Of a DNA stretch of 64,000 nt, positions 38,086 to 60,654 are shown in pieces. A model generated the notes under the pieces. That model made no database searches. It worked only from the letters and a program-made list of their open reading frames with translations, and was not told the origin of the DNA. This DNA is from Thermovirga lienii DSM 17291 (lineage in GTDB: Bacteria > Synergistota > Synergistia > Synergistales > Thermovirgaceae): positions 1,762,501-1,826,500 of the forward strand of contig CP003096.1 of the NCBI GenBank assembly GCA_000233775.1, in the 5' to 3' direction. Both the position numbers and the translations under genes were made by a program. The number at the start of each line of letters is the position of its first letter. Positions within the stretch are counted from its first letter, which is position 1.

Positions 38086-39378
38086 TCACCAAGGCGCGTA
38101 GCCCATGAGCCTTGGGAGGAAAAGGGGTATACCGGGAAATACAGTTATCAATATGAGAACAGAAACCACAACAAGAATAAAAGGGAATATCTCTCTGCTC
38201 AGCTGCTCTATGGTCAGCCTACTTATGCCACAGGCTACGAACAGGCACGCCCCCACCGGCGGAGTCATCAAGGCTATGTTGAGGGAAAGAACCATTATTA
38301 TGCCGAAATGGAGGGGATGAAAGCCCATCTTCACGGCCAACGGGTGAAGGATGGGACCAAGGATTATGAGAGCCGCCGCTATGTCCATGAACATTCCTAC
38401 GAAAAGCAGAAGAAGGAGTATCATTCCCATGACAACCCATTTGTTGGTGCTTATACCCAACATAAGATTAGCGACCTTTTCCGGAATCTGCTCCATGGTG
38501 AGCACCCACCCCAATATGGAGGCAGCAGCTATTACCAAGAAAACCACTCCGGTAGTTCTGGCCATCTTGATGAAAATGGGAACCAGGTCTCTCACGGTTA
38601 TGCTTCGATATACTACGAAGCCCACGAACAAGGCATAGGCAACAGCTACCGCCGCAGCCTCCGTCGGGGTAAAAACACCGCTTAGAATTCCACCCAGGAT
38701 GATTATGGGCATAAGGAGAGCCACAAAGGCCTCCTTAAAGGCAAGGATCATCTCTTTCAGCGTAGCCCGTCTTTGACCGACGGGATAACCTCTCTTTTTG
38801 GATATCCTCGCAGTTAGTATCATCAGTGCTACGGCAACCAGTATCCCCGGAAGGATGCCTGCCAAAAACAACCCAGCTATGGAGACCTGCATGAACGCCC
38901 CGTAGATGACCATTATGTTGGAGGGAGGGATTGTGGGCCCTATGATTGATGAAGACGCTGTAACTGCCGCAGAAAAATCCTTGTCGTACCCTTCCTCAAC
39001 CATGGCTGGAATAAGCATGGAGCCTATAGCTGCTGTATCGCTTACGGCTGCTCCAGTAAGTCCGGCAAAGAACACCGAGGCCACTATATTTGCATGTGCA
39101 AGCCCACCCTGAAGGTGCCCCACAAGTACGTTGCTGAACTTTACGAGCTTCTGAGTGATACCCGTCTTGTTCATTATGTCTCCAGCCAAGATGAAAAAGG
39201 GCATGGCCATGAGGGTGAACATATCCACTCCCGCAAAATATCGCTGGGGCACTAACTGAAGTATGGAGGGAACGTTCATCTTGAGCATGGAAAGAAGTCC
39301 AGTAACCCCCAAGACAAAGCCTATGGGCATGCCCACTACGAGAAATATCACGAACACGGCAGTTATAAAGCCAGTCAT
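38086..39378 (-). CDS. dctM: TRAP transporter large permease
   Basis: 430 residues with about twelve membrane segments. DctM signatures: MPFFILAGDIMNKTGI near 59-74, SGAT-like AGLTGAAVSDTAAIGSMLIP near 106-125, an IIGPTIPPSNIMVIYG segment near 145-160 and MTPPVGACLFVACGI near 374-388. Starts within the dctQ stop (ATGA). It completes the DctPQM importer placed in the middle of the sixteen-gene run, between the PLP enzyme and ygeY. Confidence 0.93.
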   Translation of the reverse strand: MTGFITAVFVIFLVVGMPIGFVLGVTGLLSMLKMNVPSILQLVPQRYFAGVDMFTLMAMPFFILAGDIMNKTGITQKLVKFSNVLVGHLQGGLAHANIVASVFFAGLTGAAVSDTAAIGSMLIPAMVEEGYDKDFSAAVTASSSIIGPTIPPSNIMVIYGAFMQVSIAGLFLAGILPGILVAVALMILTARISKKRGYPVGQRRATLKEMILAFKEAFVALLMPIIILGGILSGVFTPTEAAAVAVAYALFVGFVVYRSITVRDLVPIFIKMARTTGVVFLVIAAASILGWVLTMEQIPEKVANLMLGISTNKWVVMGMILLLLLFVGMFMDIAAALIILGPILHPLAVKMGFHPLHFGIIMVLSLNIALMTPPVGACLFVACGISRLTIEQLSREIFPFILVVVSVLILITVFPGIPLFLPRLMGYAPW

Positions 39379-39956
39379 CGCCCATCCCCCTTTAGAGTGG
39401 GTTCATCAAACTCTAGGTTTTCCTCCCTTTTAACCGTCGCAACTATATCCTCGGCCATAAGGATCTCGTCCAGGTCTTTGCGTCTTATGTCCAGGATCAT
39501 CTTGCAGATCAGCATGACTATGCAAAGGAGGGCACTCACAGGAACAGACATGAGCCACCAGTACATGCTAGTGTTAAGAGCCGTCGAAAGCTGCGCTTTG
39601 CCTCCCTCTGCCATTTTGAAACCGTAGACCACAAGGATATAGAGGAAAAACAAGATGAAGGCATTTGAGATGAATATTATCCCCTTGGCCAAAAGCCTCG
39701 GCAGCTTCTTTACGAACATGGTTACACCTACGTGCTCATGCCGCCAGATGCAAGGCGCAACGGCAAGGAGGGCCATCCAGATCATCATGTACCTTGAAAA
39801 TTCCTCAGTCCAACTCAAGGGAGAGACAAACACGTAACGGAACAAAACCCCCAAAAGAACGGTGAAGGTCATGATAACCGAGAGGATCAAAAGGGGAACC
39901 TCAAGGGCCTTCTCCAAGGCGTTACCTATTGTCTCTGCGGCTTTAAATATGGACAT
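39375..39956 (-). CDS. dctQ: TRAP transporter small permease
   Basis: 193 residues from ATG 39956, chosen for its AAAAGGATAAT SD; an upstream ATG (39974) has no clear SD. Four membrane segments (about 20-40, 48-68, 90-112, 125-150) in the DctQ order; LFRYVFVSPLSWTEE near 39-53 is the family motif. The C-terminal 35 residues are charged and cytosolic. The stop overlaps the dctM start. Confidence 0.9.
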   Translation of the reverse strand: MSIFKAAETIGNALEKALEVPLLILSVIMTFTVLLGVLFRYVFVSPLSWTEEFSRYMMIWMALLAVAPCIWRHEHVGVTMFVKKLPRLLAKGIIFISNAFILFFLYILVVYGFKMAEGGKAQLSTALNTSMYWWLMSVPVSALLCIVMLICKMILDIRRKDLDEILMAEDIVATVKREENLEFDEPTLKGDGR

Positions 39957-39990
39957 ATTATCCTTTTTGGGCATTTCTCATTTTTTCTAG

Positions 39991-40020
39991 GGAAAAGTAG
40001 GGCGTACGCCCTACTTTTCC
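39991..40020 (-). terminator. Perfect 30-base palindrome over the dctP stop codon
   Basis: Both 15-base halves (39991-40005 and 40006-40020) are exact reverse complements. The inner GTAGGGC/GCCCTAC stem is followed by TTTTCC on the minus strand, so it can act as a terminator or 3' stabiliser; the dctP TAG stop lies inside it. It separates dctP from dctQM. Confidence 0.75.
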
Positions 40021-41048
40021 TCCTTCACTATCTCGCTGATGGAGTCCAGATACTTGTTGGCAAGCTCCACACCTTCGTCTCCATAAGTGCTCTTGATGAA
40101 CTCCATAGCCGCTTTCCTTCCTATCTCCCTGAACTGCTCAAGAGCCTCAGGAGTAGGAGTATAAATCTCCATTCCTGCAGCCTGAAGGGCTGGCAGTCCC
40201 TTATCAGAGGCCTCTATTATCCTGTTAAGGCCTCTACCAGCAACGATCGCAGTCATGGCCGCACCGTCCACTATGGATTTTTCCTTGTCCGTAAGCCCCT
40301 CATAGAAATCTTTGTTCATGACCCAACAGTAGGTGCTGTAGAGGTGGTTGGTAAGTGTAAGATATTTCTGCACTTCATAGAGTTTCCCTGTGAGTATTAT
40401 GGGTATGGGGTTGTGCTGTCCGTCTACCACACCGGTCTGGAGCGCCGTATAGACTTCCGCCCAGGCAACAGGTGTTGCGGCAGCTCCATAAGCCTTCATC
40501 AGGTTCTGGTGAGAAGGCAAGGTCATGGTCCTCATCTTCAATCCCTTCATGTCATCAACGGTCTTTATGGGACGCTTGCTGTTGGTCAGCTGGAAGAATC
40601 CTCCCGCCTCTCCAAAGCCTAAAACCTTGAATCCCGCCTTTTTCTCTATGTCTGAAGCTAGGTACTGACCGAAGGGGCCATCAAAGAGCTTCCAAGCCAC
40701 ATTGTAATCGGGAATGGCAAAGGGTATATCCAAGACGCTGTACAGGGGATAGAAGGAGGCCATTCCCCCTGCAGAGGCTATGTAGCTCTGCACGACTCCT
40801 ACCTTGACCTGTTCCATGGTCTCCCGTTCGTTTCCAAGTTGCCCTGCAGGATAAATCTCCACCTTAAGTTCTCCGTTGCTCTGCGCCTCAACCATGCTCT
40901 TGAAAACAGCGGACATCGCAGCTGTTGCTACTTCAAAAGGCTGCTGCGGGTTCAAGTGAGACAATTTAATGGTCTTGGCCGCAAAGGCTCCGCTTGTTCC
41001 CACCATTATCATCACTGCAACCAATAACGCTACCCCAAACTTTCTCAT
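40011..41048 (-). CDS. dctP: TRAP transporter solute-binding protein
   Basis: 345 residues, signal peptide of about 23 residues (MRKFGVALLVAVM... ending GAFA). Mature features: KLSHLNPQQPFEVATAAM near 28-45, EIYPAGQLGNERETMEQVKVG near 65-85, LKMRTMTLPSHQNLMKAYGA near 167-186 with the conserved Arg that pairs with the ligand carboxylate, and GVVDGQHNP near 208-216. It belongs to the C4-dicarboxylate/sugar-acid DctP group. GAGGAGGGATGAGGT precedes ATG 41048. Ligand unknown; the neighbours suggest an amino-acid or ureido-acid type carboxylate. Confidence 0.92.
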   Translation of the reverse strand: MRKFGVALLVAVMIMVGTSGAFAAKTIKLSHLNPQQPFEVATAAMSAVFKSMVEAQSNGELKVEIYPAGQLGNERETMEQVKVGVVQSYIASAGGMASFYPLYSVLDIPFAIPDYNVAWKLFDGPFGQYLASDIEKKAGFKVLGFGEAGGFFQLTNSKRPIKTVDDMKGLKMRTMTLPSHQNLMKAYGAAATPVAWAEVYTALQTGVVDGQHNPIPIILTGKLYEVQKYLTLTNHLYSTYCWVMNKDFYEGLTDKEKSIVDGAAMTAIVAGRGLNRIIEASDKGLPALQAAGMEIYTPTPEALEQFREIGRKAAMEFIKSTYGDEGVELANKYLDSISEIVKEEK

Positions 41049-41137: not shown

Positions 41138-42610
41138 TTAAAGGTTGTCCAGCACTCCTGTCATCTCGTTGAAGGCCTTTATCTTTTCATCGATGAGAGG
41201 AGCCATTTTATGCACAGAGCCCCAGTAATTTTCCGCGTCATACCACTGGGCATTGAGCTCCTCGATATCCTTTCCTTGCTGCTCTATCCACGTATAGTAC
41301 TTCAGGTTATGAATAGCTTTCTTGTCGTAATAAGTAAGCTCCTTCATCCAATCCACCGAAAGACCCATTATGTGTTTTTCAAAGTCAACGGCGGCCTGAA
41401 CCTTGGTATAAGGGCCGAACTCTTCCTCTAGCTCCTTGATCCTGGAGCGGTACAGCTCCATACTGTCCGTGAAGACCGTAAGGATTATGTCCTTCTCCGT
41501 TAGTTCATAGTATTTGGCCATCTTGATGGCCATTATCACGTTGGCTGCACTTGATATGCCCATCAGGTGGAGCTTTTCCACAACTTCATCAGGGACTCCC
41601 TGTTCCTTCAAGAACTCCTTCCCTATAGGTTCGTTGAAAAGCCTGATCATGGCCATGCTGTCGGCATCGTCCACTGCTATCACCATGTCGGTGTTCTTGA
41701 CGTTGTGTATCCAAGGAACGTGCTTGTCCCCTATACCCTCTATACGATGAGCTCCAAAACCGTTCATAAGGAGCGTGGGGCACTGAAGAGCTTCGCCAAC
41801 GGCTATTTTGCTCCCTGGGTAGACGTCCTTCATGTAGTCACCGCACCCCAATGTTCCTGCTGAACCAGACGTCAAGGTCACGCCGAAGAACTTATCCTGA
41901 GGCCCTGCGACCTCCTTTACGACCTCTTCCATGGCATGTCCCGTAACCTCATAGTGCCACAGGTGGTTGCCCAGCTCCTCGAACTGATTAAATATAACTA
42001 CGTTGTCCCTCGTTCTGCGGAGCTCCCACGTCTTGTCGAATATCTCCTTTACGTTGCTTTCGCTGCCAGGAGTGGCTATAACTTCCCCCGCCACGCTCTT
42101 CAGCCATTCAAAGCGCTCTTTGCTCATTCCTTCAGGAAGTATGGCTATGGATTCACAGCCTAAAAGCTGAGCGTTGTAAGCTCCTCCCCTACAGTAGTTT
42201 CCAGTAGAAGGCCACACAGCTTTCTGTGTCGTTGGGTCGAACTGACCGGTCACGAGGCGGGGAACCAAACAGCCAAAGGTAGCTCCAACCTTGTGTGCTC
42301 CCGTGGGGAACCACTTGCCGACTAAGGCTATTATCCTGGCCTTCACGCCCGTGAGCTCTGAAGGAAGCTCCAAGAAGTTGACTCCGTCGTACAGCCCCCC
42401 CTTGCTTTTGGGTTCGTTCTTCCAGGTTATCCTGAAAAGGTTGAGTGGGTTCACATCCCAAAGACCTACATCCTTCAGCTTTTCTTTGATTTTCTGAGGG
42501 ATCTTTTCTGGATCCTTCATCTGTTCAAAAGTCGGTATTACAATGCCTCGTTCCTTTGCCCTTTCAACCGTCCTACGCAGCTGTTTTTCGTTAACAGTTA
42601 GGTCTATCAA
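41138..42610 (-). CDS. Fold-type II PLP-dependent lyase-like enzyme of unknown substrate
   Basis: 490 residues from TTG 42610, with AAGGAG eight bases upstream; the open frame extends six codons further with no SD. GAHKVGATFG supplies the presumed PLP lysine Lys107, STGNYCRGGAYNAQLLG at 135-151 forms the substrate loop and LTSGSAGTLG near 252-261 the phosphate-binding loop. It resembles tryptophan-synthase-beta/diaminopropionate-ammonia-lyase relatives but is longer, with N- and C-terminal extensions of about 80 and 120 residues. By context it could replace YgeX (diaminopropionate ammonia-lyase), being in one run with YgeW- and YgeY-type genes. The actual substrate is not known to me. Confidence 0.78.
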   Translation of the reverse strand: MIDLTVNEKQLRRTVERAKERGIVIPTFEQMKDPEKIPQKIKEKLKDVGLWDVNPLNLFRITWKNEPKSKGGLYDGVNFLELPSELTGVKARIIALVGKWFPTGAHKVGATFGCLVPRLVTGQFDPTTQKAVWPSTGNYCRGGAYNAQLLGCESIAILPEGMSKERFEWLKSVAGEVIATPGSESNVKEIFDKTWELRRTRDNVVIFNQFEELGNHLWHYEVTGHAMEEVVKEVAGPQDKFFGVTLTSGSAGTLGCGDYMKDVYPGSKIAVGEALQCPTLLMNGFGAHRIEGIGDKHVPWIHNVKNTDMVIAVDDADSMAMIRLFNEPIGKEFLKEQGVPDEVVEKLHLMGISSAANVIMAIKMAKYYELTEKDIILTVFTDSMELYRSRIKELEEEFGPYTKVQAAVDFEKHIMGLSVDWMKELTYYDKKAIHNLKYYTWIEQQGKDIEELNAQWYDAENYWGSVHKMAPLIDEKIKAFNEMTGVLDNL

Positions 42611-42649
42611 CTTACCCACTCCTTCCAAAATGTTCGTATCTACGAAGCC

Positions 42650-43912
42650 CTACAGCTCCCAACCACCGTAAAGCGGGAAGGCTCTGCACAGCTCCAAAAC
42701 TTCCTCTCTTACTTTCTTCAGGTTTGCCTCATCGTCGGGAGCAGATGCAACTCTGTCCATCAGGTCGGCCAGGATCACCATCTCGCTGGGACCAAAGCCT
42801 CTACTGGTCACCGCTGGAGTTCCCACCCTGATGCCGCTTGTAATAAAGGGGCTTCGGGTCTCAAAGGGTATGGTGTTTTTGTTGACGGTTATCCCCGCCT
42901 TGTCCAAGGCTATTTCAAAATCCTTCCCTGTGATACCTCTATCAGTCAGATCCAGAAGCATCAGGTGGTTGTCCGTCCCCCCTGAAACCAGCCTGAAGCC
43001 TTTTTTAGACAGGGCATCAGCAAAAGCCTTGGCGTTTTCTACTATTTTCCTCTGATACTCCTTGAACTCGGGCTGCAGTGCTTCCTGGAAAGCCACCGCC
43101 TTGGCCGCTATTACATGCATCAGCGGTCCTCCCTGCATGCCGGGGAATATGGTCTTGTCAATAGCCTTGGCGTACTCCTCTTTGCACATGACCATACCGC
43201 CTCTGGGTCCCCGCAGGGTCTTGTGGGTCGTGGTGGTGACAAAGTCACACCACGGTATAGGATCTTTATGAAGGTCGGCAGCCACCAGACCGGCAATGTG
43301 GGCTATGTCGAACATTAGGTAAGCTCCCACCTTGTCCGCTATCTCGCGGAACTTTTCTGCGTCTATCTCCCTTGGGTAAGCACTGGCTCCGCACACTATC
43401 ATCCTGGGCTTGTGCTCCAAGGCCAGGCGCTCTACCTCGTCGAAATCTATGGTCTCCGTCTCCCTTGAGACTCCGTAAGGCACCACGTTGTAAAGCTGCC
43501 CCGAGAAGTTGACCGGACTTCCGTGGGTCAGGTGCCCTCCGTGGGACAAGTTCATGGCTAAAATGGTGTCACCGGGCTTCAAGACCGAGAAGTAAACGGC
43601 CATGTTCGCCTGAGATCCCGAGTGAGGCTGGACGTTCACGTGATCGCAGCCGAAAAGCTTCTTGGCCCTATCCCGAGCCAGGTCCTCTGCCTGATCCACA
43701 AATTCGCATCCGCCGTAATACCTCTTCGCCGGATAGCCTTCAGCGTACTTATTGGTCAACACAGACCCCATTGCAGCCAACACAGCAGGGGATACCACGT
43801 TCTCGGAAGCTATGAGCTCTATGCCCTCCCTTTCTCTCTTGAGTTCCGCCTCTATCACGGAGGCTATCGCTGGATCGACCTTCCTCAAGTATTCAAAAGA
43901 CCCCACAAACAT
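42650..43912 (-). CDS. glyA: Serine hydroxymethyltransferase
   Basis: 420 residues from ATG 43912, where GGGAG has an eight-base spacing; two earlier in-frame starts crowd the SD. Blocks: [14 protein letters not shown] near 32-45, [15 protein letters not shown] near 54-68, [11 protein letters not shown] near 97-107, [10 protein letters not shown] near 199 and [14 protein letters not shown] near 222-235 with the PLP lysine. It interconverts serine and glycine with tetrahydrofolate. Its position in the run, together with folD at the end, suggests that glycine or one-carbon units are handled by this pathway. Confidence 0.95.
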
Positions 43913-43925
43913 TTCCATCACTCCC

Positions 43926-45173
43926 TTATATTACGTTTCTCTCTTTCAATGCCTTCTCTAACCCCAAAAGACAAGGCTCAGTAACTATAGGCTGCCCCAC
44001 TGCCCTGCGGGCACCATCTATGTCCTTGAGCCCGTTGCCTGTCACCACTAACGCGACCCTTGCATCCTTGGGAAGCTTACCTTCCCGCGCGGCCTTTCGG
44101 AATCCCGCAAAAGCAGTAACGCCAGCAGGTTCCCCAAAGACCCCCGTTGTCCTGGCCAGTTCCGGTATGGCTGAAAGAATCTCATCATCCGATACCGCCA
44201 GCATATCACCTCCGCTGCTTCGAACACCGTTAAGAGCCTTGGCCCAGTTTCGCGGTGCCCCAACGGAGATACTGTCCGCGACGGTGGATGCCGGGCTAAA
44301 TTCCACCCTCGGGGCCCCTTCTTTGAATGCCTTGTATATTGGGCTTGCGCCCTCCGCCTGAACTCCCACTATATGAGGCACTCGCTCCGTTAACCCAAGC
44401 TTCACCAAATCAGAAAACCCCTTATACAACCCGCTTATTATGCAACCATCTCCGACAGATACGAAAACAAAATCTGGCGCATCCCAATTCAGCTGCTCCG
44501 CTATCTCCATGGCACAGGTCTTTTTTCCTTCAACTAGGTAAGGGTTTATCGCACAATTACGATTATACCAGCCCCAGCGCTCTATTGCCTCGGTGGCCAG
44601 GTCAAAAGCTTTCTCGTATGTCCCCTTTACCAAAACCACACATGCACCGTACACCAGAAGCTGGGTGATTTTGGCCACCGGAGCGCTTTCGGGAACGAAG
44701 ATAATGCTTTTAAGACCTGAGACTGCAGCAAATCCTGAAAGGGAACTTGCTGCGTTGCCAGTAGAAGCGCAAGCTATGACATCCCTTCCGTAATCCAGAG
44801 CCTTTGCAACGCCAACAGCGCTGGCACGGTCCTTCAGAGAGCCCGTAGGGTTGCGACCGTCGTCTTTCACGTAAACTTCTTTTACACCGTAAGTTCTGGC
44901 AAGCTTTTGGGAGCTGTAAAGGGGTGTCCAACCTGCCGCAAGAGGAGGAATGTTTTCGTCTTTCTCGACGGGCAGAACAGCCTTGTACCTCCAAAGAGAA
45001 AAATCATCGTTTTCTCTAAGCTTTTCTTTCGTTATCTCCTTTGCCGCCTTCTCGTAATCGTACAGCACGTGAAAAGTCCCATCCAAGCCGCAGTCAGGGC
45101 ACGTATAAAGGTTCTCTTCTGGCTCATATTCTTTTCCGCAAATGGCACATTTTAGCAATTGAGGTTTTGCCAC
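43926..45173 (-). CDS. thrC: Threonine-synthase-type PLP enzyme with N-terminal zinc ribbon
   Basis: 415 residues. Cys9, Cys12, Cys25 and Cys28 form a zinc-ribbon-like element, then GWTPLY near 81-86, [11 protein letters not shown] with PLP Lys114, [12 protein letters not shown] near 133-144 and SVGDGC near 236. The layout matches threonine synthases of the archaeal/bacterial short type, which turn O-phosphohomoserine into threonine. No homoserine kinase or dehydrogenase gene is near, and the run is catabolic, so another beta/gamma-replacement or elimination reaction is possible. Start is GTG 45173 with GAGGTG seven bases before; it begins one base after the preceding M20 stop. Confidence 0.75.
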
Positions 45174-45174
45174 T

Positions 45175-46377
45175 TTATTTCACCTCTTTCGCCAAGAGGG
45201 CACCGCGGGATATACCGAAATATCCCTCGCAAGCCTTCTGGAGATGCTCTATCTCTATGTATTCATCATCCACGTGGGCAAGGGTCTCCAAGGACCCGCC
45301 AAAACCAACGGTTGGAATGTTAGCCTTTCCGGCGTAGTAGCTTCCGTTGGTACAGAAGTAGTAATGGGATATTTGGGGGTGTTGTCCCACGGATCGAAGC
45401 CCTTCAAGGGCAGCAACCACGAAGGGGTGATCCTCAGGAAATATCCAGCCGGGGGCGAACCGTTCAGCTATTATGGGCTCTCCGGTATAGCACCTATCCT
45501 CCCCTACGGCCAGACTGACCTTATACCTAAACTGAGGGTCATCTCTTTCGACTACTGAAAGGAGATCTTTTACCTGCTCTAGTACTTCATCCTTGACTTC
45601 ACCTTCCAGCAATCTTCTGTCAAAGGTGCACCTACAACGGTCAGGCACCACACTGGCCCCCGGATAGGGATACGAAATGATGTCCGTTACTTCAAGAATT
45701 CCCTCCCCCAACACAGGGTGTCTTTTAGGCATGAATCCATCCTCTATGGCGAGAAGGGCTTTGGTCATCTTCTTTATGGCGTTTATCCCCACGGAGGGAT
45801 TTGAGGAATGGGCGTTCTTGCCGTAGGTCTCAAGGACCACCTCGGCTCGGCCCCTTTGCCCTCGCTTCAGAGTCAAGCCAGAGGGTTCACCTATAACGAC
45901 GCAATCAGGCCTGCTTATCTTTGCTATCTCCTCCGACGCCACACCTTCGAAGCACTCCTCATGCACACATCCTGCAACGTTTATCTCCCCATCCAGCTCT
46001 CCTGCAAGGTCCTCCTTGACAAAAGCCGCAGCCAAAACCATGGCGGAAAGGTTGCCCTTCATGTCCGTTGAACCTCTACCGTAAATTTTGCCGTCCTTTA
46101 TCTGGGCACCGTAGGGATCCACACTCCACTTGGACATGTCAGAAATTCCCACGTGGTCCATGTGCCCCTCGAAAAGTATCTTTCTCCCACCCTTGCCCAA
46201 TACGACGGTACCTATCACGTTGCCGTACCTGTCAAACTCCACCTTGTCGTATCCCAGGCTTTCCATTTCCTGGGCTATCCGCTGGGCAACCCCCTTCTCC
46301 TCTCCAGAAAGACTGGGGATCCTTATCAAATCCTGGCAAAACTTTATTAGCCTTTCTCGTCTGCTTTCACTCAACAC
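45175..46377 (-). CDS. M20-family metallohydrolase (ArgE/DapE/YgeY-like), intact
   Basis: 400 residues. All expected metal and catalytic positions are present: His72 and Asp74 in EGHMDHVG, Asp105 in GRGSTDMKG, Glu140-Glu141 in VHEECFEG, Glu164 in GEPSG and a C-terminal His in LAHVDDEY. The dimerisation domain holds KNAHSSNPSVG near 187-197. Start GTG 46377 with AGGAGGGG upstream. Family members deacylate or hydrolyse N-acyl/N-carbamoyl amino acids or dipeptides. The neighbour upstream is a close paralogue with altered ligands; they may form a heterodimer (inference). Confidence 0.85.
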   Translation of the reverse strand: MLSESRRERLIKFCQDLIRIPSLSGEEKGVAQRIAQEMESLGYDKVEFDRYGNVIGTVVLGKGGRKILFEGHMDHVGISDMSKWSVDPYGAQIKDGKIYGRGSTDMKGNLSAMVLAAAFVKEDLAGELDGEINVAGCVHEECFEGVASEEIAKISRPDCVVIGEPSGLTLKRGQRGRAEVVLETYGKNAHSSNPSVGINAIKKMTKALLAIEDGFMPKRHPVLGEGILEVTDIISYPYPGASVVPDRCRCTFDRRLLEGEVKDEVLEQVKDLLSVVERDDPQFRYKVSLAVGEDRCYTGEPIIAERFAPGWIFPEDHPFVVAALEGLRSVGQHPQISHYYFCTNGSYYAGKANIPTVGFGGSLETLAHVDDEYIEIEHLQKACEGYFGISRGALLAKEVK

Positions 46378-46408: not shown

Positions 46409-47611
46409 TTATAGCCCGTTTTCTGTGGAAAGAATCTGCTCTGCTATGCCGTAATATCCCATGCACCCCAGATACATTTCCTCTATTTCAATATACTCGT
46501 CACTCACGTGAGCCAGGCTTTCCCTCGACGGACCGAAAACTATGGTGGGTATGGAAGCAACCCCTCCGTAGTAGCACCCGTTGGTCCCAAAGCCTGCCCC
46601 CTCGGCCAGCCGCGGTGGTAGCCCCGCCCTCGACAGGCCTTTCAGGCAGCTTTTAACGAAAGGATGATCCTCGGGCAAAAGCCAGGCTGGCGCAAAGTGT
46701 TCTCCAGATATGGCAGCACCTGTATAGCACTGGTATTCCGAAGAAGAGATCCATGCTCTTGCGTTTAAAGAAGGAATATGTTTTGCCGCTTCCTCCAGGA
46801 GGCGCTCCACTTGAAGCAGAACGCTGGAACGAGTCTCTCCAGGCAAAAGCCTTCTATCGAAGATCGCCCTGCAGACATCTGGCACTATGCCCGTGGCGTT
46901 TTCCGGATATGAAACCAGGCTGGTCAGTTCCATGATGCCCTCGCCAAGAAATGGGTCTTTGGCAGGCTTGAAGTTGTCCTTGATGAAGCTCACAAGACGC
47001 GCCATGAGCACTGCTGCGTTCACACCATAATCTGGCCTGGCAGAATGAGCCTGTTTTCCTGAGACCTCTACGACTATCTCGGCTCTGCCTCGCTGCCCCC
47101 GTTCCAGGGCAAGACCCGACGCCTCACCGGTCACAACGAAATCTGGGGCACATTTTTCTGCTACAAGCATGGAGGAAACGCCTTCAAATTTTTCCTGACA
47201 AACTGTGGCTGAAACCACCAACCGCCCACAAAGATCCTTAAGACGGTCTTCCTTCAAGAACGAGGCGGCACACATCATCGCCGCAAGGGCACCCTTCTGG
47301 TCTGTAGCGCCCCTACCGTAAATTTTGCCGCCCTCCAAGAATCCTCCAAAGGGATAGTGATTCCATTGAAAGGGATTTCCTACGTCTACGTGGTCCAGCT
47401 GAGCCTCAAAGAGAAGACATGGGCCCTTGCCGAAATCCATGGTTCCTATTACGCTGCCGTAAAAATCAACCTGGACATCATCAAAGCCCATGCTCTGCAT
47501 GGTATCTCTTACGAAGGCCGCAAGGAGCCGCTCCTGGCCCGAAAGGCTTGGGATGCGCACCAGGTTACTACAAAGCTTCACTAGCTCCTCTTTTCGGCCT
47601 GAGGTTAGCAT
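46409..47611 (-). CDS. M20-family paralogue with lost metal ligands, probable pseudoenzyme
   Basis: 400 residues and collinear over its whole length with the neighbouring M20 protein, so it is not truncated. The metal site is damaged at two positions: EAQLDHVD has Gln71 where the paralogue has His72, and CQEKFEG has Lys141 in place of the second Glu of the Glu-Glu pair. Asp73, Asp104, Glu140, Glu163 and the C-terminal His are kept. The frame is intact and the SD (AGGAG) is good, so it is probably expressed; a regulatory or structural subunit for the active paralogue is my inference. It is the first gene of the sixteen-gene run. Confidence 0.82.
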   Translation of the reverse strand: MLTSGRKEELVKLCSNLVRIPSLSGQERLLAAFVRDTMQSMGFDDVQVDFYGSVIGTMDFGKGPCLLFEAQLDHVDVGNPFQWNHYPFGGFLEGGKIYGRGATDQKGALAAMMCAASFLKEDRLKDLCGRLVVSATVCQEKFEGVSSMLVAEKCAPDFVVTGEASGLALERGQRGRAEIVVEVSGKQAHSARPDYGVNAAVLMARLVSFIKDNFKPAKDPFLGEGIMELTSLVSYPENATGIVPDVCRAIFDRRLLPGETRSSVLLQVERLLEEAAKHIPSLNARAWISSSEYQCYTGAAISGEHFAPAWLLPEDHPFVKSCLKGLSRAGLPPRLAEGAGFGTNGCYYGGVASIPTIVFGPSRESLAHVSDEYIEIEEMYLGCMGYYGIAEQILSTENGL

Positions 47612-47698
47612 AGTTAGTTCTCCTGACTTTTAAATATGGAGATACATTATCTAATTGAAGTTTATCCTATAATATATTAATATCAATACGCAAAATCT

Positions 47699-47806: not shown

Positions 47807-48724
47807 GTGATTACTTTCTTCCAATTGCAGACTTTCTGTGAGGTAATAGAAAGGGGGACTTTCAGTGCAGCAGCAGAAAAGCTGTATATATCCCAACCTT
47901 CCGTAAGCCAGCACATAGCGAACCTGGAAAAACATTTTGGAGTAAAGCTCTTCGACCGCCGAAAACGCAAGGTGCGCCTCACCCCTGAAGGCAGGGTCTT
48001 ATACTCCACGGCAAAAGAAGTGCTGGAGCAATTAGACAGGGCAAAAAAAAGGATAGACGACCTGAGGTCCCTGGAGGCGGGGACGTTGAACATAGGATGC
48101 AGCCACTACGTGGACTCCCTGCTTTTATGGCAGGTGCTACCAGAATTTGTCTCCCAACACCCTAAAGTCAGCGTGAGCACTTTTATAGGAACTATAGAAG
48201 AACTGAAAAGCGCGCTTCTTTCCTCCGATATAGAACTTATCTTTGCAGAGAGGACCCCTGACTTTGTGCCAAGCTCGCAATTTTCAAGCAAGGTAGTGGC
48301 CTCAGAAAAATTAGTTTTCGTGGCAACCTCAGACCTTGCAGGCAAAAAAACGTCTTTTTTCACTCCAAAAGATCTGGAAAGATATCCTCTTATAGGCTGG
48401 CATCCATCATCGTGCCTCTTTTCATACCTAAACGACTTTCAGATGCAAAATCAGCTCCGCCTCAGGCGCAAGATCACCGTATCAAGCATTGAGGCAGCCA
48501 GAGAGCTGGCCTTGAAGGGGCACGGGATAGCCCTACTGAACCTTCGCTCCGTAGAGGATGACATAGCCATGGGAAGGTTGATAAAACTGGAAGTAAAGAC
48601 CCCCCAACCGCTGAAACTGGACATCCTAGCCTTATTCCACCAAACCCAGGGCCTAACCTATGCAGGCTGGGAAATGATTAAATTCCTTGAGCGGAAACTA
48701 CTATTTAATGAAGGTTCTCAATAA
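47807..48724 (+). CDS. LysR-family transcriptional regulator
   Basis: 305 residues. N-terminal winged HTH at 1-62 (TFCEVIERGTFSAAAEKL, then SQPSVSQHIANLEKHFGVKLFDR split over 30-52), followed by a periplasmic-binding-type effector domain at about 90-295. Start GTG 47807 has AGGAG seven bases upstream. It is divergent from the M20-to-folD run, the usual arrangement for a LysR activator and its target; it could also act on the downstream tup genes, but these have their own riboswitch-like leader. Confidence 0.9.
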   Translation: MITFFQLQTFCEVIERGTFSAAAEKLYISQPSVSQHIANLEKHFGVKLFDRRKRKVRLTPEGRVLYSTAKEVLEQLDRAKKRIDDLRSLEAGTLNIGCSHYVDSLLLWQVLPEFVSQHPKVSVSTFIGTIEELKSALLSSDIELIFAERTPDFVPSSQFSSKVVASEKLVFVATSDLAGKKTSFFTPKDLERYPLIGWHPSSCLFSYLNDFQMQNQLRLRRKITVSSIEAARELALKGHGIALLNLRSVEDDIAMGRLIKLEVKTPQPLKLDILALFHQTQGLTYAGWEMIKFLERKLLFNEGSQ

Positions 48725-48776
48725 TAAGATAGCCAAAGATGTAGGTTGTATGGAGAGCCTTCATGTGCTATTTTCA

Positions 48777-48906
48777 TTGTGCCTCCGAGCTGAAGCTCCT
48801 AAAGGTCCAATCCTATGGAGCCCAGCCGAAGGGTATTCCTGGAAACAGGAGTGCCTCCCGTGTTTGGAAAGGAGGGATGAGCATGTTCATACGGGATGCC
48901 TCCTGG
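48777..48906 (+). ncRNA. Probable Moco/Tuco riboswitch upstream of tupA
   Basis: The 212-base leader before tupA contains TGCCTCCGAGC, a GCTCC...GGAGC stem, GCCGAAGGG, a CCTGGAAACAGG stem with GNRA-type tetraloop (48838-48849) and a second TGCCTCC (48852-48858), all in the order I recall for the Moco RNA motif. A CCTCCC/GGAGGG hairpin (48854-48859 with 48871-48876) and a CAGGAG/CTCCTG pairing (48846-48851 with 48900-48905) could be the alternative expression-platform structures. Moco-motif RNAs sense molybdenum or tungsten cofactor; the downstream tungstate importer favours the tungsten form. Boundaries are approximate and not confirmed by a covariance model. Confidence 0.65.
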
Positions 48907-48937
48907 AGAAGCAAACTTTGACAAAGGGGGAATGAAC

Positions 48938-49768
48938 ATGCGCAAATTTTTTGCCTTCCTGGTGAGCGTGGCACTGCTAATGGCCCTCGCCCTTCCTGGT
49001 GTAGCGGCCCCACAATATTTGATGATGGCCACCACCACCAGCACCGATAACACAGGGCTTTTGAACGTTTTGGCGCCAGCCTTTGAAAAGGCAACAGGCA
49101 TAGAGCTTCGCTGGACCGCCGTAGGGACTGGCAAAGCCTTGGAGTTGGGAAAAAACTGCGACGTGGATATCTTGCTGGTTCACGCACCCAACAAGGAGAA
49201 AAAATTCGTGGAAGACGGATACGGGGTAAACCGCAGGGAAGTAATGTACAACGACTTCGTCATAATAGGACCTCCTTCTGACCCAGCAAACATAAAGGGG
49301 CTTGACGTCATCTCCGCCCTGAAAAAAATCCGATCTCATGAAGCTTTATTCGTAAGCCGAGGAGATAACTCTGGGACCCATACGAAGGAGCTCAAACTCT
49401 GGAAAGAAGCAGGAATCAATGGACTGGACAAGGAAAAGTGGTACATACAGACCGGACAGGGCATGCTGAACACCATAAACATAGCAACGGAGCGCGACGG
49501 ATACACATTAACGGACAGGGGGACCTTCATAAAATACGAGGCAAACCACAAAGGCACTCCTCCTCTCGTGATACTGGTCGAAGGAGATAAGCTCTTGCTC
49601 AACCAGTACAGTGTCATAGCTGTAAATCCAAAGCGCTGTCCCAAGGTAAAATATGACCTGGCACTCAAGTTCATCGATTGGATAACCTCCCAAGAGGGAC
49701 AAAAAGTAATAGGCGACTTCCGCCTTATGGGAAAGCAACTTTTCGTGCCCAACGCTGCTGAACAGTAA
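48938..49768 (+). CDS. tupA: Tungstate ABC transporter substrate-binding protein
   Basis: 276 residues from ATG 48938 with GGGGG seven bases upstream; other ATGs six or more bases earlier lie on the SD. Signal peptide ends ALPGVAA. The mature start MMATTTSTDNTGLL is the oxyanion-binding TupA motif, followed by GTGKALELG, VHAPNKEKKFVEDG near 85-98, SRGDNSGTHTKE near 144-155 and GQGMLNTINIA near 177-187. TupA binds tungstate with high affinity and discriminates against molybdate. Tungsten is needed for aldehyde:ferredoxin oxidoreductases in amino-acid-fermenting anaerobes, which fits this organism. Confidence 0.93.
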   Translation: MRKFFAFLVSVALLMALALPGVAAPQYLMMATTTSTDNTGLLNVLAPAFEKATGIELRWTAVGTGKALELGKNCDVDILLVHAPNKEKKFVEDGYGVNRREVMYNDFVIIGPPSDPANIKGLDVISALKKIRSHEALFVSRGDNSGTHTKELKLWKEAGINGLDKEKWYIQTGQGMLNTINIATERDGYTLTDRGTFIKYEANHKGTPPLVILVEGDKLLLNQYSVIAVNPKRCPKVKYDLALKFIDWITSQEGQKVIGDFRLMGKQLFVPNAAEQ

Positions 49769-49788
49769 GGCATTCAGGAGAGGGTAAA

Positions 49789-50478
49789 ATGAACTACATC
49801 CTTGAAGGCTTCATAGGGGCTATCAATTTGCTTTTAACGAAAGATCCAGAAACCTACTCAGCCATCTGGACAACGTTGCGCATTTCCACCCTCTCCATAA
49901 CTTTCACTCTCCTGTTGGGCATCCCCCTGGGATTTCTTCTGGGACACTACTCCTTCCCTGGCAAAAGGGTCCTTAGGACCATTGTGGACACTCTGCTCGC
50001 TCTACCAACGGTGGTAGTGGGCCTTTTGGTCTACGCGTTCATTTCTAGGAGAGGGCCTTTTGGCGAATTGGGGCTTTTATTCACCATACCAGGCGTCGCC
50101 ATCGGACAATTCATCCTGGCTTTGCCAATAGTGGTCTCCCTTACTGCATCGGCAATAGAGGGAATGGATCCCAAAGTCTACCTGACCATCAAAACCCTGG
50201 GAGCTTCCAACAAGCAAGCGGCTATCGCCTCCCTGTGGGAGGGACGCTATGCGGTGTTAGCAGCTGCGATAACCGCGTACAGCAGGGTGATATCCGAGGT
50301 AGGCATTTCCATGATGATAGGCGGAAACATCAAATGGCACACCAGAACCATAACGACCGCCATTGCCCTGGAGACAGGAAAAGGGGAGTTCTCCATGGGG
50401 ATAGCCCTTGGAGCCGTGCTCCTTGCCTTCGCCTTTTTCGCCAACACCTTGGTCTCTTTCCTGCGAAGGAGGGCCTAA
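49789..50478 (+). CDS. tupB: Tungstate ABC transporter permease
   Basis: 229 residues with about five or six membrane segments; SALP-type coupling loop TIKTLGASNKQAAIASLWEGR near 142-162, preceded by ALPTVVVGLLVYAFISRRGP near 64-83. It lies 20 bases after tupA and one base before tupC in a compact tupABC operon. Unlike the other importers here, no hairpin separates it from the binding-protein gene. Confidence 0.92.
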   Translation: MNYILEGFIGAINLLLTKDPETYSAIWTTLRISTLSITFTLLLGIPLGFLLGHYSFPGKRVLRTIVDTLLALPTVVVGLLVYAFISRRGPFGELGLLFTIPGVAIGQFILALPIVVSLTASAIEGMDPKVYLTIKTLGASNKQAAIASLWEGRYAVLAAAITAYSRVISEVGISMMIGGNIKWHTRTITTAIALETGKGEFSMGIALGAVLLAFAFFANTLVSFLRRRA

Positions 50479-50479
50479 C

Positions 50480-51502
50480 ATGAAAGATATTTTCAGGCTG
50501 GAAAATGTAATTCACCAGTATTCTGGAAGGACGGTCCTGGACATACAAAACTTCGAGGTGAAGGAAGGAGAAGCTTTGGCCCTCTTGGGACCCAACGGAA
50601 GCGGCAAGAGCACCTTGCTGCGAATACTGGCCTTTCTTGAGAAACCCACGAAGGGCAGGGTTTACTACGACGGCAAGATGGTAAATGAACCTTCGTTCGC
50701 CCACAGAAGGGAAGTAACCCTGTTGCTGCAAAATTCTCCTCTGCTCAAAAGGAGCGTGGAGGAAAATTTATGCTATGGTTTGAAAGTCAGAGGCAAGACC
50801 AGCAACATGCAAGAAAAAGTGAGAACGGCCCTCGAAATGGTGGGCCTCAACCCTCAAAAATTCGCCAAAAGGAAATGGTTTGAGCTTTCAGGTGGGGAGG
50901 CACAGAGGGTGGCCTTGGCTTCAAGGCTCATTTTGAAACCGAGGGTGCTTCTCCTTGATGAACCCACTTCAAGCGTTGACTCTGAGAGCGCAAAGGTCAT
51001 GAAAGAGGCAATCCTAAAGGCAAAAAACCAATGGGGCTCCACCCTAGTGATAGTAAGCCACGACCTAGCGTGGATCTATCAGGTCACCGAGAGGGCCCTC
51101 TCACTCTTCAACGGCAAGCTCATAAACCACGTTCCAGAAAATGTGCTATCCGGAAACTGGGAACCCCGTAACGGCAGCCTTTTCGCCCTGAAACTTTCAG
51201 ATGGCCAGATCATAATGGGAGCTGGTAATCCCATGGAAAGTTCAACTGCCCTACTGGACCCCAAGGACGTGATAATCTGCGCAGAAAAACCCGAGGAGGA
51301 TTCTGCCCTGAACGCTCTTGAAGGGACCATAGTCTCCATGAACCTGGTAAGAGATACCGGCCAAGTACTGGTTAAAACCCTAGTTGGAGATAAAACCATC
51401 TCCAGCCTCGTCACCGAAAAATCCATGAAAAACCTCCATCTTCATCCGGGACTGAAGGTGTTTCTCCACTTCAAGGCCTCAGCCCTCAAGTGGTTACAAT
51501 GA
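50480..51502 (+). CDS. tupC: Tungstate ABC transporter ATPase
   Basis: 340 residues from ATG 50480, with AAGGAGGG upstream inside the tupB end. Walker A LLGPNGSGKST near 34-44, LSGGEAQRVALA near 137-148, Walker [11 protein letters not shown] near 157-166 and the SHD switch near 193. The C-terminal 100 residues (from about 235) form TOBE/MOP-like folds that may bind the oxyanion, as in molybdate ATPases, and could give feedback inhibition of import. Confidence 0.92.
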   Translation: MKDIFRLENVIHQYSGRTVLDIQNFEVKEGEALALLGPNGSGKSTLLRILAFLEKPTKGRVYYDGKMVNEPSFAHRREVTLLLQNSPLLKRSVEENLCYGLKVRGKTSNMQEKVRTALEMVGLNPQKFAKRKWFELSGGEAQRVALASRLILKPRVLLLDEPTSSVDSESAKVMKEAILKAKNQWGSTLVIVSHDLAWIYQVTERALSLFNGKLINHVPENVLSGNWEPRNGSLFALKLSDGQIIMGAGNPMESSTALLDPKDVIICAEKPEEDSALNALEGTIVSMNLVRDTGQVLVKTLVGDKTISSLVTEKSMKNLHLHPGLKVFLHFKASALKWLQ

Positions 51503-51596
51503 CCTTTTTGCCAACATCAGTTTAATTGAAAAAACTTACAGATGACCATATAATATTTTGTACGCATCGTTAACTGAACCAAGGGAGGTTTTAAAC

Positions 51597-52802
51597 TTGA
51601 CGCATCAGGTAATGCATGAACTAGTCCAAAAATACCGCAGTACCTTTATCGGTTACTGGAAGGATTTCCACAAACACCCGGAACCAAGCCACAAAGAGGT
51701 CAGAACGGCCGCCAAGGTCGCAGAGATATTGAAAAACCTAGGCATGGAAGTGAAAGAGGGCGTGGGAGGCACTGGTGTTGTAGGCCTATTAAGAGGAACA
51801 CAAACAGGCCCCACCATAGCCCTAAGAGCGGACATGGACGCCCTCCAGATAAAAGAGGAAACGGGCTGTGATTTTGCCTCCATGAACGAAGGAGTCATGC
51901 ACGCCTGCGGCCACGATTCCCACACAGCCATGCTATTGGGTGCCGCCCATGTGCTTTCAGAACTCAAGGCCCACATAAGAGGAAACATTAAATTCATCTT
52001 TCAACCCGCAGAGGAGGACAGCCCCGTGGGTGGGGCCCCAGCAATGATTAAGGATGGGGTATTAGAAGACCCCAAAGTGGAGGCCATATTCGGTATCCAC
52101 GTTTGGCCAACCCTGGAGACGGGCGTCATGGGAATAAAAGAGGGGGTAATGTCCGCCGCTTCGGACAGGCTTAAAATGTCCATATTGGGCAAATCCACTC
52201 ATGCAGCCACTCCTGAATTCGGTGTGGACGCAGTGGTTATAACAAGCCAAGTCATATCGGCCCTGCAGACCATTATCTCAAGAAACGTAAGCCCTCTGGA
52301 TTCTGCCGTCATAACCTTTGGGAAAATAGAAGGCGGAAGCAGGTACAACATAGTGGCAGACCGAGTAGACCTGGATGGAACGGTCCGGACCTTCAACCCG
52401 GACACGAGAAAATTGGTGGCGGAAAAGATATCCCAAATTGCGGAGGGCGTGTCAAGTAGCATGGGAGGAGATTGTATCGTAGATTATAAATGGGGGTATC
52501 CTCCCACCATGAACGACCCTTCAGTTACCCAAATAGCAAAAGAAACCATCTTGGAAACTTTAGGGGAAAACGGTCTCTATGAAATCTCCATGCCAAACCC
52601 TGGCGGGGAAGACTTCGCTTTCTTCAGCGAAAAAGTCCCCGCTGCGTTTGCGTGGTTGGGATGCAGACCCAAAGGCATCCCTCCAGAAAACTTCCCCAAG
52701 CTTCACAACAATAAGTTCTTGCCCGATGAGGAAGCTCTACCCATAGGGGTTACTTATCTCTGCCAGGTTGCCCTGGCCGCATTGGGGGCGTTATCCAAAT
52801 GA
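51597..52802 (+). CDS. M20D amidohydrolase (hippurate hydrolase / AbgB-like)
   Basis: 401 residues from TTG 51597, which follows GGGAGG by eight bases; the open frame runs 13 codons further with no SD. M20D signature MHACGHDSHTAMLLGAA near 101-117, with the Cys metal ligand typical of aminoacylase-1 relatives, then FQPAEEDSPVGGAP near 138-151 and HAATPEFGVDAV near 201-212. It probably removes an acyl or aroyl group from an N-acyl amino acid. The next gene is a clear AbgA homologue that starts within its stop (ATGA), then comes AbgT; in E. coli AbgA and AbgB form the p-aminobenzoyl-glutamate hydrolase, so this may be the AbgB partner. Confidence 0.85.
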   Translation: MTHQVMHELVQKYRSTFIGYWKDFHKHPEPSHKEVRTAAKVAEILKNLGMEVKEGVGGTGVVGLLRGTQTGPTIALRADMDALQIKEETGCDFASMNEGVMHACGHDSHTAMLLGAAHVLSELKAHIRGNIKFIFQPAEEDSPVGGAPAMIKDGVLEDPKVEAIFGIHVWPTLETGVMGIKEGVMSAASDRLKMSILGKSTHAATPEFGVDAVVITSQVISALQTIISRNVSPLDSAVITFGKIEGGSRYNIVADRVDLDGTVRTFNPDTRKLVAEKISQIAEGVSSSMGGDCIVDYKWGYPPTMNDPSVTQIAKETILETLGENGLYEISMPNPGGEDFAFFSEKVPAAFAWLGCRPKGIPPENFPKLHNNKFLPDEEALPIGVTYLCQVALAALGALSK

Positions 52803-54070
52803 ATTTAGAAGAGCTTACAAAATTGAGAAGGGACTTTCACAAGTTTGCTGAGGCAGGCTGGTGTGAATTCCGAACCACGTCAATAATTGCGGAGACCCTT
52901 TCAAAACTCGGATATGAAGTGCAGGTCGGAAAGGCGATCCTGGACGAGTCATCCGTTATGGGCCGTGACGAATCAATAGTGCCGAATGAAATCGAAAGAG
53001 CCTTAAGACAAGGTGCCGACCCCAAATGGATCGAAAAGATGGAAGGCTATACCGGAGCATTAGCCGTCCTTGATACAGGAAAAGAGGGCCCCACCATAGC
53101 CCTGCGCTTTGACATAGACGCCGTGGAAGTGAGCGAGGCAAAGGACGACAAACATCGCCCATATAGGGAGGGCTTTTCTTCCGTAAACTCCGGAGCCATG
53201 CACGCCTGCGGCCACGACGGCCATGCAGCCATCGGTCTTGGAGTAGCCCAAGTACTGGCTGCCGAAAAAGACCTCTTACGGGGCAAAATAAAGCTTATCT
53301 TCCAACCCGCGGAGGAGGGAGTGAGGGGAGGCAAGGCAATTGCAGAAAAAGGCATTCTTGACGACTGCGATTATCTCTTGGCCCTGCACCTTGGCCTTGG
53401 CCTTCCCACAGGCAAGATAGCAGGAGGTGTAGCTGGGCTTCTTTGTACCACAAAGTTCGACGTGTTCTACAAGGGAAAGGCTTCCCATGCAGGAGTGGCG
53501 CCCAATGAAGGTAAAAACGCCCTTTTAGGTGCAGCCAATGCCGTGATAAACCTCCAGGCCATAGCTTCCCATAGAAAAGGCACATCCAGGATCAACGTGG
53601 GAGTCTTGCACGCAGGGGAAGGAAGAAACGTAATTCCTCCAAAGGCCATGTTCAAGGCAGAGACCAGGGGAGAGACGGAAGAAATAGCTTCGTACGTGTA
53701 CGAGAGAGCCATGAAGATCGTAAAATCCTGTGCTTCCATGTACGACCTGGAATGCATCGTAAAGGAGATGGGTAAATCCACTACCGCAAAAAGCGACGGA
53801 GACCTGGTCGATTTGATATGCCAAGTCGCAGAAGAGACCAGGGAATTCAACAGTATAGAAAGCTTTTATAACATGGGAGGAAGCGACGACTTTTCATGGA
53901 TGATGAAGAGAGTTCAAGAGAAAGGAGGGAAGGCGTCTTACATAGCTTTGGGAGCTGACATAGAGGCAGGGCACCATAACGAATACTTCGACTTCGACGA
54001 AAAAAGCCTGCTCAAGGGAGTAGTTCTCATGAGTCAGCTAGTAGAAAAACTAACCAACTCTGAAAGCTAA
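52799..54070 (+). CDS. abgA: p-Aminobenzoyl-glutamate hydrolase subunit A-like amidohydrolase
   Basis: 423 residues. Closely follows E. coli AbgA in layout: an N-terminal LRRDFHKFAEAGWCEFRTTS stretch, the inserted DESSVMGRD segment near 47-55, HRPYREGFSSVNSGAMHACG near 119-138 with GHDGHAAIGLG, QPAEEGVRGGKAIAE near 165, KASHAGVAPNEGKNALLGA near 223-241 and HHNEYFDFDE near 392-401. It cleaves p-aminobenzoyl-glutamate, a folate breakdown product, to p-aminobenzoate and glutamate in characterised relatives. Overlap with the upstream M20D gene and the adjacent abgT support the same role. Confidence 0.88.
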   Translation: MNLEELTKLRRDFHKFAEAGWCEFRTTSIIAETLSKLGYEVQVGKAILDESSVMGRDESIVPNEIERALRQGADPKWIEKMEGYTGALAVLDTGKEGPTIALRFDIDAVEVSEAKDDKHRPYREGFSSVNSGAMHACGHDGHAAIGLGVAQVLAAEKDLLRGKIKLIFQPAEEGVRGGKAIAEKGILDDCDYLLALHLGLGLPTGKIAGGVAGLLCTTKFDVFYKGKASHAGVAPNEGKNALLGAANAVINLQAIASHRKGTSRINVGVLHAGEGRNVIPPKAMFKAETRGETEEIASYVYERAMKIVKSCASMYDLECIVKEMGKSTTAKSDGDLVDLICQVAEETREFNSIESFYNMGGSDDFSWMMKRVQEKGGKASYIALGADIEAGHHNEYFDFDEKSLLKGVVLMSQLVEKLTNSES

Positions 54071-54090
54071 AAGAAAGGAGGATTTTACAA

Positions 54091-55647
54091 ATGGTTCAAG
54101 AAAAGGAAAAACATGGTTTTTTGTATAGGATCATCAAGGGAATAGAAGTGGCAGGCAACAAATTGCCCCATCCGTTTTGGCTTTTCATGGGGCTTTGGGT
54201 CCTAGTCTACATACTGTCGGCGGTGTTCGCAGGAGCTCAGGTGGTAAAACCTGGAACGGACAAAACGATTCAAATTATAAACCTTATATCCCGAGAAGGC
54301 CTCGACTGGCAGCTGACTAGTTTGGTCAAAAACTTCTCGAGCTTCCCGCCCCTTGGACTGGTGCTAGTTATGATGATAGGCCTTGGGGTCACCACCAAAA
54401 GTGGCTTTCTTGAAGCTTTGATGAAGAGCATAGCCAAAGTTCCGGAGAAGTTCTTGATCTTCGCCGTCTTCCTGTTTGGAATATGTGGCAACCTGGCATC
54501 TGATGCAGCCATAGTCATAGTGCCGCCCCTTACAGGAGCTTTGTTCTTCTCCATGCGCAAAAACCCCATCTTCGGACTGGTTCTTGGGTACGGTGCTGTC
54601 TGTGCCGGATTCACGGCGAACCTTTTCATAGCTGGGACCGACGTTCTCCTTTCGGGAATATCCACCACCGCATACCAGATAGTGGTACCAGGAGGGGAAG
54701 TGTACCCCACCGCGAACTATTACTTCATGGTGATATCCACTCTAGTCATATCGGCACTAGGCGCCATCTTTGTGAGCAAGTTTTTGATGCCCTCCTTTGG
54801 CGCATGGGATAAAAAGTTCGACACATGCGATGCCGCGCTGGAAATGCACGGTTCTCAGGATTCAACAAAAGGCTTTGCTTTGACCCAAGAGGAAAGCAAG
54901 GCCTTCAAGAGCGCCCTTTGGTTTACCTTGCTATATTGGGCCGTCATGCTGGCAATGGTTCTTATCCCCGGTGGTCCCTTGCGGGATCCCGCAAAGAACA
55001 CCATTATCCCCTCACCGTTCATAAAAGGCATGGTCCCCCTTATGCTCCTTTACTTCATACTTGTCGGTGTGGTTTACGGACGTAAGGCAGGCACGATAAA
55101 GACCGCAAAGGACATGATCGATAGCATGGTTTCAAGCGTAGGTCACATGGCAAGCTATATAGTAATAATTTTGCCCATAGCAAACTTCATTGCGGCCTTT
55201 AAAAAATCTAACATGGCCATAGTCATGGCAGTAAAACTGGCAGGATGGCTCCAGGACATGGGCCTTACTGGCTTTGGACTCCTCATCGCCATAATATTGC
55301 TTTCCACCTTTGTAAACCTCTTTGTCACCAGCGGCTCCACCAAGTGGGCCTTCATGGCTCCCGTTATAATTCCAATGCTCTACTACCTAAACTACTCTCC
55401 GCAGCTCGCGCAACTGCTCTACCGTATCGGAGACTCCTCCACAAACTCCATAACACCTATGATGCCCTATTTCCCCATACTGCTCGGCTTCGCAGCAAGG
55501 TACGACAAAGAGGCCGGAATCGGAACCATTGTGTCACTGGGGATTCCCATATCCCTGTTCTTCATGGCTGTGTGGATAGTCCTCCTCGCCATATGGTACT
55601 TCTTGGGACTCCCACTGGGACCAGGAGCCGGCATATTCGTAAACTAA
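54091..55647 (+). CDS. abgT: AbgT-family p-aminobenzoyl-glutamate transporter
   Basis: 518 residues with about eleven or more membrane segments. Family marks: an LPHPFWLFMGLWVL stretch near 25-38, VLVMMIGLGVTTKSGFLEALM near 91-111, NLASDAAIVIVPPLTGALFFS near 131-151, an AGTDVLLSGISTTAYQIV region near 179-196 and NLFVTSGSTKWAFMAPVIIPM near 409-429. AbgT proteins import p-aminobenzoyl-glutamate; some homologues (MtrF, YdaH) export antifolates, but the linked hydrolases favour import and breakdown. An AAGGAGG SD precedes ATG 54091. Confidence 0.92.
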   Translation: MVQEKEKHGFLYRIIKGIEVAGNKLPHPFWLFMGLWVLVYILSAVFAGAQVVKPGTDKTIQIINLISREGLDWQLTSLVKNFSSFPPLGLVLVMMIGLGVTTKSGFLEALMKSIAKVPEKFLIFAVFLFGICGNLASDAAIVIVPPLTGALFFSMRKNPIFGLVLGYGAVCAGFTANLFIAGTDVLLSGISTTAYQIVVPGGEVYPTANYYFMVISTLVISALGAIFVSKFLMPSFGAWDKKFDTCDAALEMHGSQDSTKGFALTQEESKAFKSALWFTLLYWAVMLAMVLIPGGPLRDPAKNTIIPSPFIKGMVPLMLLYFILVGVVYGRKAGTIKTAKDMIDSMVSSVGHMASYIVIILPIANFIAAFKKSNMAIVMAVKLAGWLQDMGLTGFGLLIAIILLSTFVNLFVTSGSTKWAFMAPVIIPMLYYLNYSPQLAQLLYRIGDSSTNSITPMMPYFPILLGFAARYDKEAGIGTIVSLGIPISLFFMAVWIVLLAIWYFLGLPLGPGAGIFVN

Positions 55648-60627: not shown

Positions 60628-60654
60628 CGAAATCTCCTCCATAGCTGCCAAAAT

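Follow-up and report, generated by a model that had tools for sequence, protein, structure and literature searches.

The stretch of DNA analysed here, 64,000 nucleotides of Thermovirga lienii DSM 17291 (contig CP003096.1, positions 1,762,501 to 1,826,500; hereafter the window), comes from a genome of 1,999,646 bases in two contigs. On the minus strand, positions 46409-47611 hold an ATG frame encoding a YgeY-family M20 protein of 400 amino acids, termed here the Q-type for its Gln71 and Gln139. A Shine-Dalgarno motif, AGGAG (47620-47624), lies eight bases 5' of the ATG at 47611, and the gene leads a minus-strand run from which a LysR-type regulator diverges on the plus strand (47807-48724; family match); an earlier note on this DNA had described just such an open frame of 400 codons, with a good Shine-Dalgarno sequence, as the first gene of a long operon. 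The gene following it on the minus strand, N1 (45175-46377), is a canonical YgeY paralog with the active-site residues His/Glu/Glu, as assigned by family match, alignment and tree. The minus strand then carries, as identified by family matches, a threonine-synthase-like (ThrC-like) fold-type II PLP enzyme (43926-45173), the serine hydroxymethyltransferase gene glyA (42650-43921) and a CysK-like PLP enzyme of 496 amino acids (41138-42628), followed by a DctP-DctQ-DctM TRAP transporter (38086-41048; DctP from its family match, DctQ and DctM from ORF sequence and position), a second canonical paralog, N2 (36838-38037; alignment), and an OTC/YgeW-like carbamoyltransferase (35821-36807) that falls under the curated cut-offs of both YgeW and OTC and appears intermediate between ornithine carbamoyltransferase and YgeW. 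Further along the run are a nucleoside-type ABC transporter, a dihydropyrimidinase/D-hydantoinase (HyuA-like; 29826-31190, minus strand; TIGR02033, 450 bits against a cut-off of 393) and FolD.

Neighborhoods collected by tblastn indicated a usual order at Q-type loci of divergent LysR, Q-type, (N1), ThrC-like, (GlyA) and CysK-like genes, the last often followed by the TRAP transporter, YgeY/N2 and the carbamoyltransferase. The LysR gene is kept at nearly all of these loci, and the ThrC-like gene usually comes next after the Q-type gene or the Q-type-N1 pair. The CysK-like enzyme, which scored under every NCBIfam cut-off, was found in 74 of 188 Synergistota genomes and forms the core of a conserved operon. 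The ThrC-like protein is a second, catabolic-looking copy; the copy at C1:630440, 43% identical to it, is probably the biosynthetic one. Beyond the regulator, a Moco (molybdenum/tungsten) riboswitch (RF01055, 79.7 bits; 48771-48890) lies immediately before a tungstate-type ABC transporter (48896-51502). At 51558-55647, an AbgT-family transporter comes after two M20D amidohydrolase genes that overlap, an arrangement like that of abgA-abgB-abgT, and the window's second nucleoside-type ABC transporter set (56850-60651) lies beside a proline-peptidase-like gene. A role in defence was discarded, there being no PADLOC match.

The product of 46409-47611 carries both the catalytic (PF01546) and the dimerisation/lid (PF07687) domains of the M20 fold, and it belongs to the YgeY family by its match to NF009555 (366.1 bits over residues 3-395, curated cut-off 321). 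Its AlphaFold2 model (pLDDT 95.4, pTM 0.92) found its best PDB matches in the M20A enzymes DapE, ArgE and LysK (TM 0.69-0.82 to the query), with which it shares the fold and all pocket residues except the two Gln residues. A further match was 5-nitroanthranilate aminohydrolase, an M20-fold enzyme of non-amide chemistry and thereby a precedent for a re-tooled M20 site; the comparison with the Q-type covered the fold. With N1 and N2, the window thus contains three YgeY-family paralogs within 11 kb. N2, 74% identical to E. coli YgeY, is its true ortholog here; in the reductive breakdown of urate, the E. coli enzyme takes off the ureido group that remains (PMC12507026; PMC12990295). The Q-type resembles E. 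coli YgeY in family, fold and pocket residues and in partly common neighbors (hydantoinase, carbamoyltransferase), but has Gln in place of both His71 and the general base Glu139. N1 is the ortholog of the YgeY encoded in the dpaL-YgeY-D-aminoacylase clusters of Cetobacterium and Rhodovastum. These proteins, which outside the phylum are the closest canonical relatives (43-45% identical to the Q-type, 52-54% to N1), share a common ancestor with the Q-type, but they have His/Glu/Glu together with Cys342, and their partner lyase is DpaL rather than a ThrC-like or CysK-like protein.

The five metal ligands of active M20A enzymes, His/Asp/Glu/Glu/His, are H91, D123, E158, E185 and H425 in MsAA, and its catalytic residues are D93, E157 and H226, a Glu taking the proton from water (PMC11511702). 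Within the adjacent Glu pair, water is deprotonated by the first residue, and the second is a metal ligand (MsAA E157/E158, PMC11511702; ArgE E144/E145, PMC4320195), with E144 of ArgE serving as general acid/base (PMC4320195). Sequence, alignment and orthologs place the Q-type changes as follows. Codon 71 (CAG, 47399-47401) encodes Gln where the HxD motif normally has its metal-binding His (His72 in N1), as had been claimed. Codon 139 (CAG, 47195-47197) encodes Gln in place of the general-base Glu, the first of the pair, and codon 140 (GAA, 47192-47194) retains the metal-binding second Glu. The earlier note had instead read Lys141 as the altered second Glu and counted two metal ligands lost. 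That register does not hold, because Cys138-Gln139-Glu140-Lys141 aligns over His-Glu-Glu-Cys of N1, with Lys141 over the non-catalytic Cys, and the PDB alignment agrees (TVCQEK over TVGEEV of DapE 7uoi); alignment with both paralogs, 86 homologs and PDB chains ruled out Lys141 as a replaced ligand. What is missing is one ligand and the catalytic base. The Q-type therefore has four of the five M20A ligands; its Asp104/Glu140/His368 metal site is complete, and the other site is without its HxD His.

A search of 188 Synergistota genomes returned relatives at E <= 1e-90 in 53, and the proteins of these genomes, with YgeY/N2 proteins found nearby, formed the comparison set. The close family existed in two states without intermediates, His/Glu/Glu (n = 44) and Gln/Gln/Glu (n = 42). 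Gln71 and Gln139 were invariant in all 42 Q-type orthologs, and His occupied the HxD position in 44/44 proteins of the other clades. Both Gln codons were in use at each site (CAG 33 and CAA 9 at position 71; CAG 34 and CAA 8 at position 139), so it is the amino acid, and not the codon, that has been held. The alignment of orthologs that had been suggested as a check thus found both altered positions conserved, as Gln/Gln and not Gln/Lys, while close relatives with the canonical His and Glu, which would have spoken for decay, were looked for and none was found among the 42. Around these residues, Asp73, Asp104, Glu140, His189 (the trans His of the dimerisation domain), Arg254, Thr343, Gly345 and His368 were present in 42/42 Q-type proteins, and Glu163 and Asn344 in 41/42. 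Three further residues are invariant and particular to the clade: Gly340, Gly342 where N1 has Cys, and Tyr86 where the active forms have Asp. Position 346 is Cys in 97% of Q-type proteins versus Ser in N1; the replacements of Asp86 by Tyr, of Cys342 by Gly and of Ser346 by Cys are nearly invariant in the clade. No new conserved acid was found among the Q-specific positions.

In trees built without the diagnostic columns, a single clade (SH-aLRT 99) united the Q-type proteins, and it retained support of 96/84 in a careful tree with outgroups. N1 grouped with the canonical YgeY proteins from Cetobacterium and Rhodovastum, so the divergence of Q-type and N1 appears to predate the spread of N1 between phyla, with moderate support at that depth. 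The comparison with the nearest relative (G183) was saturated, and closer pairs were therefore used for dN/dS, which was 0.06-0.13 over 22 pairs. In the same genome pairs the Q-type has changed faster than N1, with mean identities of 54% and 67%, respectively. Outside the Synergistota, no Q-type protein was detected in a sample of about 200 genomes, which covered big phyla like the Bacillota in part and gave a single match, G209, of canonical form; in the phylum of G209, matches were read in 30 genomes and all had His/Glu/Glu. None was seen on plasmids, the best matches checked being His/Glu/Glu, and a contig scan reached only a Thermovirga relative (a MAG, 85% identity). Literature linking Synergistetes with YgeY was sought and not found, and a review of metallopeptidase pseudoenzymes does not discuss the M20 family.

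The earlier note had proposed a retained pseudoenzyme. Retention under selection is strongly supported by the invariant Gln pair and the low dN/dS, and the conserved loss of catalytic residues among orthologs that marks pseudoenzymes is seen in the Q-type, in which Gln139 replaces the general base in 42/42. The pseudoenzyme designation is plausible, since that base is gone, but unproven. The reading favored here, to which we assign a probability of about one half, is that the Q-type is an ancient, hydrolysis-dead, ligand-binding derivative of YgeY with a binding, regulatory or scaffolding role beside PLP enzymes, and not an obligate subunit of N1. In an ancient YgeY-type M20 sub-branch, both the general-base Glu and the HxD His were replaced by Gln and the changes then fixed, while the other active-site residues (Asp73, Asp104, Glu140, Glu163, His189, Arg254, Thr343-Asn344-Gly345 and His368) have been kept on an intact M20 fold. 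Such a protein would hold at most one well-coordinated metal, at Asp104/Glu140/His368, and would be unable to activate water for hydrolysis, while presumably still binding the ureido- or amino-acid ligand of the pathway. It may thereby serve as a non-hydrolytic component that holds substrate, regulates or acts as a scaffold, next to the PLP enzymes of an operon for ureido-amino-acid catabolism under LysR control.

The strict invariance of the entire pocket, both Gln residues included, is equally what a working, re-tooled site would be expected to display, and it counts against a mere binder. As the main rival reading, to which we give roughly one chance in three, the Q-type may accordingly be an active single-metal M20 enzyme. 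Its metal would sit at Asp104/Glu140/His368, where Gln71 may contribute weakly as a ligand, and Gln139 would orient the substrate for altered or non-hydrolytic chemistry on a ureido-amino acid of the same pathway. The Q-type and N1 swap in the slot before the ThrC-like gene between Q-only and N1-only genomes, which hints at related activities, and the 5-nitroanthranilate aminohydrolase match shows that unusual chemistry on this fold exists. The general base of M20A hydrolases is nevertheless gone, with no acid newly conserved at Q-specific positions, and the Q-type is evolving faster than N1. A bolder form of this proposal, and a somewhat more doubtful one, is that the Q-type represents a previously undescribed class of M20-fold enzyme, in which two active-site Gln residues and a single metal would replace the dinuclear hydrolytic center and the altered chemistry would feed the ThrC-like and CysK-like PLP enzymes of the Synergistota.

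Alternatively, the Q-type could be an inactive subunit dedicated to the N1 enzyme next to it, lending His189 in trans to the N1 site and shaping its specificity. This is modeled on the p-aminobenzoyl-glutamate hydrolase AbgA-AbgB, in which two M20 paralogs form one heterotetramer (PMC5082436). As with AbgA and AbgB, the Q-type and N1 are adjacent, divergent M20 paralogs in an operon; the order 5'-Q-N1-3' occurs in the window and in nine other assemblies (G183, G182, G187, G179, G186, G185, G122, G009 and G010), and the trans His is kept throughout. However, the Q-type is of the M20A and not the M20D type, and with N1 scored at E <= 1e-90 the two co-occurred in 17 genomes, whereas 25 of the 42 Q-type genomes, near-complete assemblies among them (G032, G109 and G114), lacked N1, and 11 had N1 without the Q-type. 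Because of these 25 genomes, obligate pairing with N1 is ruled out, and the partnership that the earlier note had envisaged between the Q-type and its active neighbor is not supported as a general role. Obligate pairing with YgeY/N2 is likewise ruled out, N2 being found in 28/42 Q-type genomes and missing from 14/42; three drafts lacked both N1 and N2. A heteromer with N1 may form where both are present; as an account of the Q-type as a whole, the subunit proposal seems unlikely. The most constant companion is instead the CysK-like enzyme, found in 41/42 Q-type genomes (Fisher 8e-20, uncorrected for relatedness). Recent decay of an inactivated duplicate toward a pseudogene, suggested by two changed catalytic residues beside an intact paralog, is highly improbable and already refuted by the orthologs, the same two residues being fixed phylum-wide from one origin in intact frames with a dN/dS of 0.06-0.13.

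The LysR-controlled operon resembles those of ureido-amino-acid catabolism of the reductive urate type. It is not a full uricolytic cluster, because SsnA (best 157 bits against a cut-off of 455.5) and diaminopropionate ammonia-lyase (best about 43 bits against 276) are absent from the Thermovirga genome; its function is probably ureido-amino-acid catabolism, in which a ThrC-like or CysK-like protein would be the PLP lyase.

Transfer by homology would label all 42 Q-type proteins "YgeY family selenium metabolism-linked hydrolase." As these proteins are without the water-activating residue, that label is probably wrong for the whole sub-branch. Since 42 genomes across the phylum keep both identical replacements, the Q-type is a long-maintained and probably non-hydrolysing member of its pathway, not a decaying gene. 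Its two-state pattern, with the pocket otherwise the same and both states often in one genome, lends itself directly to testing how a binuclear hydrolase becomes a binder or a new enzyme. The Q-type further suggests that the Synergistota possess an unexplored route for ureido-amino acids, related to anaerobic urate breakdown, which in Thermovirga would operate without SsnA and diaminopropionate lyase.
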